64,000 bases of DNA from Bacteroidia bacterium (GTDB taxonomy: Bacteria > Bacteroidota > Bacteroidia > J057), in assembly GCA_033391075.1 (NCBI GenBank), contig JAWPMV010000001.1:5022001-5086000 (forward strand). The letters are read 5' to 3'. Shown here one piece after another: positions 2,934 to 6,003 of this stretch; the first letter of the stretch is position 1, and the number at the start of each line of letters is the position of its first letter. The notes beneath the pieces are model-generated. The model did not search any database. It had not been told where the DNA came from and worked only from the letters and a program-made list of their open reading frames with translations. A program made the position numbers and the translations under genes.

Positions 2934-2999
2934 CAAATGAGATCGTTTATTCTATTAGTCTATGAAGTTGAGGAAAAAATCACAAAGGGGGGAGAAAAT

Positions 3000-3100
3000 G
3001 TGTTCTGGTGTTCCGGTGTTCCGGTGTTCTGGTGTTCTGGTGTTCTGGTAGACGAATTACAAAAACATGAACACGAGAACACTTGAACACTTGAACACGA
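3000..3100. repeat. Facing octamer arrays (GTGTTCYG x6 / GAACACNN x4)
   Basis: Six consecutive 8-bp units GTGTTC(T/C)G run from 3000 to 3047. After 21 bp, four units GAACAC(GA/TT) run from 3069 to 3100, the reverse complement of the same core. The whole could fold into a long hairpin. It lies between divergently transcribed genes (sigma operon and ankyrin gene). A related pair of arrays occurs at 51598-51674. Confidence 0.85.
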
Positions 3101-4616: not shown

Positions 4617-5150
4617 TTACAAATACTGCTTATAAGCTTCAATTTTAGCGGCAAGTCGACTTTCCAGGTACTCATTCTTCCCCTTAAGCCTGGCCAGGAT
4701 TAGTATTGCCTCCTCTCGGTAGCTAGCAGCCTTTTCTTTGGTCCAGTGATAAGGAGGTCCTTGCAGATTGGTGATTCGATCAGCCAGTTTTACAATCCCT
4801 GCCTCTTTATCACAAGCATTTATACGCTTCAGGCTATCTTCCATTTGTTCTTGCTTCGTAGAAAGGTTTTTGTTTTTGCTTAAAGCCGAAACAGCTTTCG
4901 CGACCTTTCCCCCAAAATTTTCCGCTACCTCATCAAAGGTTGCTGCTGTGTCCTCTATGGTATCATGGAGAATGGCTGTCTGTACAGCCAGTTCCAAATC
5001 AAAATCCGGTGTTGCAGCATGGGACTGAAGCACTTCCATGGCCACATTGGATATATGCAAAAGGTAATTGGCGGAAGAACCGGGCACTTGTTGATTTGCA
5101 TGTTTTTCCCCGGCAAATTTCAGGGCTTTCTGATAGATCTCCTGTATCAT
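4617..5150 (-). CDS. Small alarmone hydrolase-like HD-domain protein (SpoT/MESH1 type)
   Basis: 177 aa. The HD phosphohydrolase fold of the RelA/SpoT/MESH1 group is visible: an N-terminal helix with HANQQVPGSSANYLLHISNV, the metal-binding HDTIEDT (HD pair near residue 62) and VKLADRITNL near residue 120, the usual nucleotide-facing segment. The synthetase and regulatory TGS/ACT domains of full SpoT are absent, matching single-domain hydrolases that remove pyrophosphate from (p)ppGpp or act on NADPH-like nucleotides. It lies 6 bp downstream of the MerR-family gene and is probably co-transcribed with it, an unusual pairing. Confidence 0.8.
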   Translation of the reverse strand: MIQEIYQKALKFAGEKHANQQVPGSSANYLLHISNVAMEVLQSHAATPDFDLELAVQTAILHDTIEDTAATFDEVAENFGGKVAKAVSALSKNKNLSTKQEQMEDSLKRINACDKEAGIVKLADRITNLQGPPYHWTKEKAASYREEAILILARLKGKNEYLESRLAAKIEAYKQYL

Positions 5151-5156
5151 CGATAT

Positions 5157-5531
5157 TTATATTTCCAGCATTTCCTTGCAGTTTCCCTGACAAGAGTCCG
5201 CCACATGTTTCAGCTTTGCTTCCATCTTCTGCAATTCTTTGATCTTTTCTTCAAGGGCTTTCATTTTTCTGTTCATAAGCTCAGACAAAGAAGTACATTG
5301 AAGGCCTTCTTGTTCGTCCAATAAGAAAAGCTCCTCGATTTCCTTCAGCGTAAACCCAAAGCTTTTGAGCTGACGGATTGCAAAAAGTCGCTCGATCATA
5401 GCCTGATCATAAATACGATAATTGCTTTCTCCTAAAGCCCTCTGCTTTCTCTCAATCAATCCTATCTTTTCATACCACCTCAGGGTATCGGCTGAAAAAC
5501 CGGTCAGTTTCGAGACTTCTCCTATTCGCAT
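5157..5531 (-). CDS. MerR-family transcriptional regulator, likely metal- or thiol-responsive
   Basis: 124 aa, normal length for the family. The N-terminal winged helix-turn-helix reads MRIGEVSKLTGFSADTLRWY with the following YEKIGLI wing; a long dimerisation helix covers about residues 80-112. Cysteines are at 79, 114 and 118. The 35-residue spacing of the first two equals that of the metal-ligand cysteines in MerR (82/117) and ZntR (79/114), so a soft-metal or thiol signal is likely. It is divergent from the gene at 5602, with a perfect palindrome in the shared promoter region, and is followed after 6 bp by the alarmone hydrolase gene. Confidence 0.88.
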   Translation of the reverse strand: MRIGEVSKLTGFSADTLRWYEKIGLIERKQRALGESNYRIYDQAMIERLFAIRQLKSFGFTLKEIEELFLLDEQEGLQCTSLSELMNRKMKALEEKIKELQKMEAKLKHVADSCQGNCKEMLEI

Positions 5532-5550
5532 AAAAAAAATGAATTTTTCC

Positions 5551-5581
5551 TTGACTCTGGAGTATACTCCATGCCTTAGCT
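5551..5581 (+). promoter_or_regulatory. MerR-type operator/promoter with 14-bp palindrome
   Basis: The perfect palindrome TGGAGTATACTCCA occupies 5558-5571. It lies downstream of TTGACT (5551-5556); 19 bp after that hexamer is TTAGCT (5576-5581). A dyad inside an over-long 19-bp spacer is the hallmark of MerR-family promoters, where the activator untwists the DNA. The hexamers follow the proteobacterial sigma70 pattern rather than the Bacteroidota TTG/TAnnTTTG pattern, so the -10 assignment is tentative; the palindrome itself is certain. It faces the gene at 5602 and lies 26 bp upstream of the MerR start codon. Confidence 0.75.
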
Positions 5582-5601
5582 TAGCCTAAAAATACAAAGA
5601 C

Positions 5602-6003
5602 ATGAAAAGAATCCTGAATTTTTCAATCGCTTTCCTTTGGCTCGGCCTTACCATAAGCTTTGCTCAAAGTACAGATTCCCCCAAAAAATCAAATACCATG
5701 GATAGTCAATTATTAGTTTGCAAATTAAATGGGCCGGAACTGATCCAAAGAAAACAAGCCCTTCAAAAAGAAGTATTCAGCCAGATGATTTCTTATGAGG
5801 AATTGGACAAAGGATTTCTTTTCCGATTCGATTTCGAAGAAAACTTCCTCCTCAAACTGACTGATTATATGCTAGCCGAAAAGAAATGCTGCCCCTTCTT
5901 TCAGTATGAGTTGAAGATCAGAGCTCATGCAGAGGGTTTGGAATTGAGAGTTTCGGGAGAGGGAAAGGCGAAGGAGATGTTGAGGAGTTTGATGGAGGAC
6001 TAA
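5602..6003 (+). CDS. Small exported protein with CCPFF motif, MerR-linked
   Basis: 133 aa. A signal peptide (residues 1-22, ending SFAQS) precedes a compact domain that begins MDSQLLVCKLNGPELIQRK and contains the conserved KKCCPFFQYEL segment (about residues 98-108). Small proteins with such an E/K-x-CCPF core are often encoded beside MerR-type regulators and in mercury-resistance-like loci, where the vicinal cysteines could bind a soft metal; that functional link is inference. An internal ATG at 5698 would give a cytoplasmic version without the signal peptide. Expression is presumably controlled from the palindrome at 5558-5571. Confidence 0.7.
   Translation: MKRILNFSIAFLWLGLTISFAQSTDSPKKSNTMDSQLLVCKLNGPELIQRKQALQKEVFSQMISYEELDKGFLFRFDFEENFLLKLTDYMLAEKKCCPFFQYELKIRAHAEGLELRVSGEGKAKEMLRSLMED

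Follow-up and report, generated by a model that had tools for sequence, protein, structure and literature searches.

The window analysed here, a stretch of 64,000 nucleotides from a Bacteroidia bacterium (contig JAWPMV010000001.1), contains a locus in which merR, coding for a MerR-family regulator, lies directly upstream of a gene for a small alarmone hydrolase (SAH) on the same strand, and divergently from a third gene, with which it shares a 70-bp intergenic region. The product of this third gene is referred to below as the CC protein. The positions, the common strand and the 6-bp gap given for the first two genes in a first-pass annotation of this DNA agree with the open reading frames (5157-5531 and 4617-5150). 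The span described there ends at 5581, inside the intergenic region, and leaves out the CC gene (5602-6003), which is key to the locus. The genes are as follows:

4617-5150, minus strand: SAH with a single HD_4 domain, 177 aa (Pfam, phmmer, AlphaFold2 model and residue conservation)
5151-5156, minus strand: gap of 6 bp between merR and the SAH gene (ORF positions)
5157-5531, minus strand: merR, MerR-family regulator of 124 aa, metal-type subgroup with a short C-x3-C loop (Pfam MerR_1 and MerR-DNA-bind; C79/C114/C118)
5602-6003, plus strand: CC protein, putative exported, 133 aa (homologue neighbourhoods and a 12-member alignment)

The regulator and the alarmone hydrolase

The merR product contains the helix-turn-helix and dimerisation domains of its family (MerR_1, 66.6 bits, E 2e-18; MerR-DNA-bind, 53.2 bits; both above the curated Pfam cut-offs) and is identified as a MerR protein with high confidence. 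Its assignment to a named subgroup was attempted with NCBIfam models, and all four scores fell under the respective cut-offs: ZntR (PRK09514; 94.3 bits, cut-off 143), CueR (93.4 bits, cut-off 147.4), CadR-PbrR (88.6 bits, cut-off 151.5) and the MerR equivalog (86.2 bits, cut-off 150.9). Filing the regulator under any of these names is thus ruled out. The same genome holds no close paralogue of it, the next match having an E value of 6e-7, and a search for a mer operon elsewhere in the 9.49-Mb sequence yielded no MerA above cut-off.

The cysteines of the regulator are found at positions 79, 114 and 118, as first annotated. Metal-sensing MerR proteins carry at least two of three metal-binding cysteines (PMC1526738), and a cysteine at the position equivalent to Ser77 of CueR, which is occupied here by C79 and not by a serine, is a mark of divalent-ion sensors (PMC9909328, PMC11591864). 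The distance of 35 residues from C79 to C114 had been likened to that in MerR and ZntR; this holds against the published numbering for Tn501 MerR (82/117) and ZntR (79/114), and CadR (77/112) has the same spacing (PMC9909328). The loop itself is shorter, its second cysteine following four residues after the first (C114-x3-C118), compared with 9 in Tn501 MerR, 7 in CadR and 10 in ZntR. We infer from these residues a sensor of the divalent-metal type, with a metal as its probable ligand, although a loop this short does not point to one exact ligand.

Regarding the SAH gene, its product matches HD_4 over residues 9-155 (E 1e-13, above the curated Pfam cut-off) and contains no synthetase, TGS or ACT domain, an architecture that identifies it with high confidence as a single-domain SAH. 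The best phmmer matches are to the Pseudomonas aeruginosa SAH (6yvc, 6z3n and 6z3o; E 6e-31). The AlphaFold2 model (pLDDT 97) has the fold of RSH hydrolases, and its closest solved relative is again the P. aeruginosa protein (6yvc; Z 28.2, rmsd 1.2 Å over 173 residues, 40% identity). Human and Drosophila MESH1 (Z 21-22.5, the human protein giving 22.5) and Corynebacterium glutamicum RelH (7qoc/7qod; Z 20.8) share the HD_4 hydrolase fold and are more distant, with 28-29% and 19% identity, respectively, in the structure alignments. The earlier description as a SpoT/MESH1-like single-domain hydrolase is therefore right as to the single, intact HD_4 domain and loose as to MESH1.

Residues H32, H62-D63, E66-D67, D124, R125 and N128 are invariant across 16 relatives and include the metal-binding and catalytic set of RSH hydrolases (His, HD, ED, D and N). 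All the HD-domain catalytic residues are shared with the P. aeruginosa enzyme, as is a turn rich in proline that follows the last motif (GPP in the window protein, PPP in P. aeruginosa), whereas the genomic context of the two genes is different. Judged by its sequence and model, the protein is an SAH with an intact active site and can probably degrade alarmones of the (p)ppGpp type. SAHs of a similar general kind act on (p)ppGpp and (p)ppApp, and XccSAH also acts on NADPH (PMC9765508). The taxonomic spread of the relatives would fit the Mesh1-L or the pbcSpo2 subgroup in the scheme of Atkinson 2011. A second short HD_4 protein is encoded in the same genome (L004:1414-1935; G000 C1, about 6920879); its HD and ED motifs seem to have degenerated (ALHQVPRI...), and it is possibly an inactive SAH relative.

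Because only 6 bp separate merR from the SAH gene, the two are likely co-transcribed, and the short gap may leave room for some regulatory coupling. The first-pass annotation had gone further and linked a metal or thiol signal to alarmone turnover through this pair, so that stress sensed by MerR would raise the turnover of alarmones or NADPH. The metal type of the regulator, the intact active site of the SAH, the 6-bp gap on a common strand and the double activity of a bacterial SAH, XccSAH, on alarmones and NADPH (PMC9765508) are all in line with such a metal regulon. The comparison with other genomes is not. A total of 100 loci with SAH/HD homologues were gathered from other genomes, 41 of them at 100 bits or more, and a profile search of their flanks (in most cases 1.5 to 5 kb per side, less at contig ends) found a MerR gene in none; the CC gene was likewise absent from all 100 within the same flanks. 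A conserved merR-SAH operon is thus rejected as far as these flanks reach. The earlier text had itself named uniqueness of the pair to this genome as a reason to give up the link, and within the searched flanks the pair was seen nowhere else. Likewise, no plasmid was found with DNA resembling the three-gene locus (SAH, merR and CC), and a search of the published literature on MerR together with ppGpp and mercury returned nothing relevant.

The nearest relatives of the SAH, in Aquimarina sediminis (64% identity), in the genome G043 (63%) and in G006, of the same family (59%), have unrelated neighbours. These comparisons, all with genomes of other genera, suggest that the position of the SAH gene on the 3' side of merR is specific to this lineage. 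In G006 it lies directly 3' of an unrelated gene on the same strand, a sulfatase by inspection, which indicates that the SAH gene can travel as a 3' passenger. The G006 arrangement would also suit a lineage-specific bicistron, with steady co-transcription of merR and the SAH gene, the latter having been retained because it is well served by low expression under MerR autoregulation; the two would then be truly coupled, but without induction by metal. The 6-bp gap on one strand agrees with this reading, as does the position of the operator, no more than 40 bp before the start codon of merR (see below). The pair is not conserved, however, and gaps of a few base pairs between neighbours on the same strand are frequent in bacterial genomes and do not imply functional coupling. 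We consider such a bicistron unlikely.

The operator between merR and the CC gene

A palindrome inside a promoter spacer of 19-20 bp is a hallmark of MerR-regulated promoters, and this layout is found upstream of the CC gene:

5551-5584, plus strand: MerR-type promoter/operator of the CC gene (from the sequence; conserved before the CC gene of G001)
5551-5556, plus strand: -35 element TTGACT (from the sequence)
5558-5571, plus strand: perfect 14-bp palindrome TGGAGTATACTCCA (from the sequence)
5577-5584, plus strand: -7-like element TAGCTTAG (from the sequence)

The promoter thus reads TTGACT-CTGGAGTATACTCCATGCCT-TAGCTTAG, with the palindrome within a 20-bp spacer. The -7 element is imperfect, differing at two positions from TAHHTTTG (Bacteroidota consensus TANNTTTG; PMC6847099), and the operator matches the published ZntR operator consensus ACTCTGGAGTCGACTCCAGAGT (PMC1526738) at 16 of 22 positions. 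The pattern TTGACNNTGGAGTANACTCCA occurs once in the window, where 0.03 matches are expected by chance, and this same site is its single match in the 9.49-Mb genome even with up to two mismatches allowed. A sigma-70 promoter scan of the region, which does not model Bacteroidota promoters, gave no hit on either strand.

The promoter reads rightward, into the CC gene and away from merR and the SAH gene, and the operator lies 20-40 bp before the merR start codon. Its use by a leftward promoter of merR and the SAH gene was considered and ruled out as the main reading, as the spacing and the -7 element fit a rightward promoter only. The rightward assignment is favoured on these grounds and because the layout is kept at a second CC gene, in a genome of the same family and another genus (G001). 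The sequence before the CC gene there is TTGACC-GTGGAGCATACTCCAGGGTT-TATATTTG, of the same design and with the same 20-bp spacer, and the -7 element is a perfect Bacteroidota consensus. G001 also contains the best orthologue of the window MerR among 22 genomes of the order (44% identity, with C79/C114); this MerR gene and the CC gene are located on separate contigs, and the gene that comes after the MerR gene has no Pfam match and is not an SAH gene.

These results weigh further against a metal regulon that includes the SAH gene: the sole operator faces the CC gene, it is kept there in G001, whose MerR orthologue has no adjacent SAH gene, and the palindrome is in the DNA immediately before merR, a position at which repression of the leftward transcript is to be expected. 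With the pair absent from all 100 SAH/HD loci, we regard the proposed link between a metal or thiol signal and alarmone turnover as very unlikely.

Of 100 relatives, 3 had the operator when at most one mismatch was allowed, namely the window, G001 and G480. In G480, the sequence TTGACCATGGACTATACTCCATGGTTTATACTTG lies between the gene of a same-class MerR that has no Cys79 (L170:1445-1888) and a divergent gene of the DinB family. The operator type alone is therefore no proof of metal sensing; taken together, the three occurrences suggest that the operator is, within this MerR clade, linked to the divergent target. The divergent MerR/CC promoters of Peribacillus and Cytobacillus again have a palindrome after TTGACT.

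The CC protein family

The CC protein has a probable signal peptide, as judged by inspection. An alignment of 12 homologues contains conserved C40, R50, G71, E93, C96 and C97, among which an invariant C40...E93-x2-C96-C97 forms the signature of the family. Its members match no Pfam family and no PDB entry, NCBIfam gave two single weak matches to unrelated families, neither of them credible, and no homologue was confirmed in IMG/VR. An AlphaFold2 model calculated from the single sequence reached a pLDDT of 44.6 and was left aside. The family ranges over Bacteroidota, Bacillota, Actinomycetota and haloarchaea (window 5602-6003; L037-L042, L125-L132 and L171-L173).

The neighbourhoods of the homologues are rich in genes related to mercury and arsenic. 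On three haloarchaeal plasmids the CC gene is found with merB or alkylmercury lyase genes, and in Peribacillus it adjoins merA and is divergent from a MerR gene. The Cytobacillus homologue is likewise divergent from a MerR gene and lies beside ars genes, those of Adhaeribacter are within ars operons, and others from Bacteroidota (L125 and L128) lie beside an SBF/ACR3-type transporter or ArsR. At L129/L134 the CC gene is tail-to-tail with a MerR gene of the same C79/C114/C118 pattern, and in Rhodococcus a MerR domain and a CC domain are fused in one protein. On the strength of these sequence neighbourhoods and of the operator, the CC gene is most likely the conserved target of the window MerR.

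The neighbourhoods also bear on the nature of the signal, which could in principle be a thiol, a redox change or another non-metal cue, with the CC protein as the effector. A disulfide could form within the close C114-x3-C118 loop, and the G480 regulator uses the same operator without Cys79. Against this, the neighbours of CC homologues include mercury and arsenic genes in several phyla, and the cysteine at the CueR Ser77 position is the one that marks divalent-ion sensors (PMC9909328, PMC11591864). A non-metal signal seems, on balance, quite improbable.

Other small proteins were observed close to CC genes. DUF6789-like membrane proteins adjoin them in two loci (L128:1017-1466 and L130:949-1458), and another (L136:1942-2394, a match under the Pfam cut-off) is divergent from a MerR gene with the same Cys79/Cys114 arrangement. 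In Peribacillus and Rhodococcus the CC gene is accompanied by small proteins without a Pfam match (L041:4660-4896 and L040:5285-5596), in which a probable membrane segment carries the motif CxxCCAxP; by eye they are MerT/MerE-like.

A model for the locus

MerR proteins activate their targets by twisting an over-long promoter spacer; the regulator's own transcription is as a rule either not controlled or subject to repression alone, and in the characterised divergons the promoter over the palindrome serves the target gene only (PMC1526738). Given this mechanism, and Cys79 as the mark of divalent-ion sensors, the best supported model is that of a MerR of the divalent soft-metal type with the divergent CC gene as its dedicated, conserved target, the SAH gene being an independent, lineage-specific neighbour; we assign it a probability of roughly three in four. 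In this model, MerR would sit on the palindrome at 5558-5571 within the over-long 20-bp spacer, and a divalent soft metal would bind C79', C114 and C118. The ligand-bound regulator would then realign the CC promoter, leading to the production of the putative exported, cysteine-rich CC protein, which would handle the metal at the cell envelope. The SAH gene would at most be co-transcribed with merR from a leftward promoter. As the operator lies just upstream of merR, binding of MerR is expected to repress that promoter or to leave it unaffected, so that the amount of SAH would stay low and more or less constant, without induction by metal. We infer this regulatory logic, both the activation of the CC gene and the repression or non-regulation of merR and the SAH gene, from the sequence arrangement. 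A lineage-specific circuit in which the divalent-metal MerR ties the SAH to CC expression, so that metal stress would alter (p)ppGpp levels, appears highly improbable.

The locus resembles the ZntR, CadR, PbrR and MerR divergons in the fold of the regulator, the Cys79/Cys114 positions, the palindrome in a 20-bp spacer and the divergent target. It differs from them in the C-x3-C loop, which is shorter than in any of these regulators, in the target, a CC protein instead of an efflux pump or a mer operon, and in the presence of the SAH gene 3' of merR. An attractive connection of metal sensing to the stringent response is left without support; what the locus shows is a MerR divergon of the usual kind, next to an SAH gene that stands on its own. 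Of greatest interest is a by-product of the analysis, the unnamed, cysteine-rich CC family, whose members are found near mercury and arsenic resistance genes and, in the window genome and in a second genus (G001), are preceded by a MerR-type promoter of their own. The family is a candidate, open to experimental test, for a new component in the handling of mercury or arsenic.

In addition, an intergenic array of an 8-bp unit (GTGTTCTG/GTGTTCCG) in about seven copies was observed at 2992-3055 of the window.
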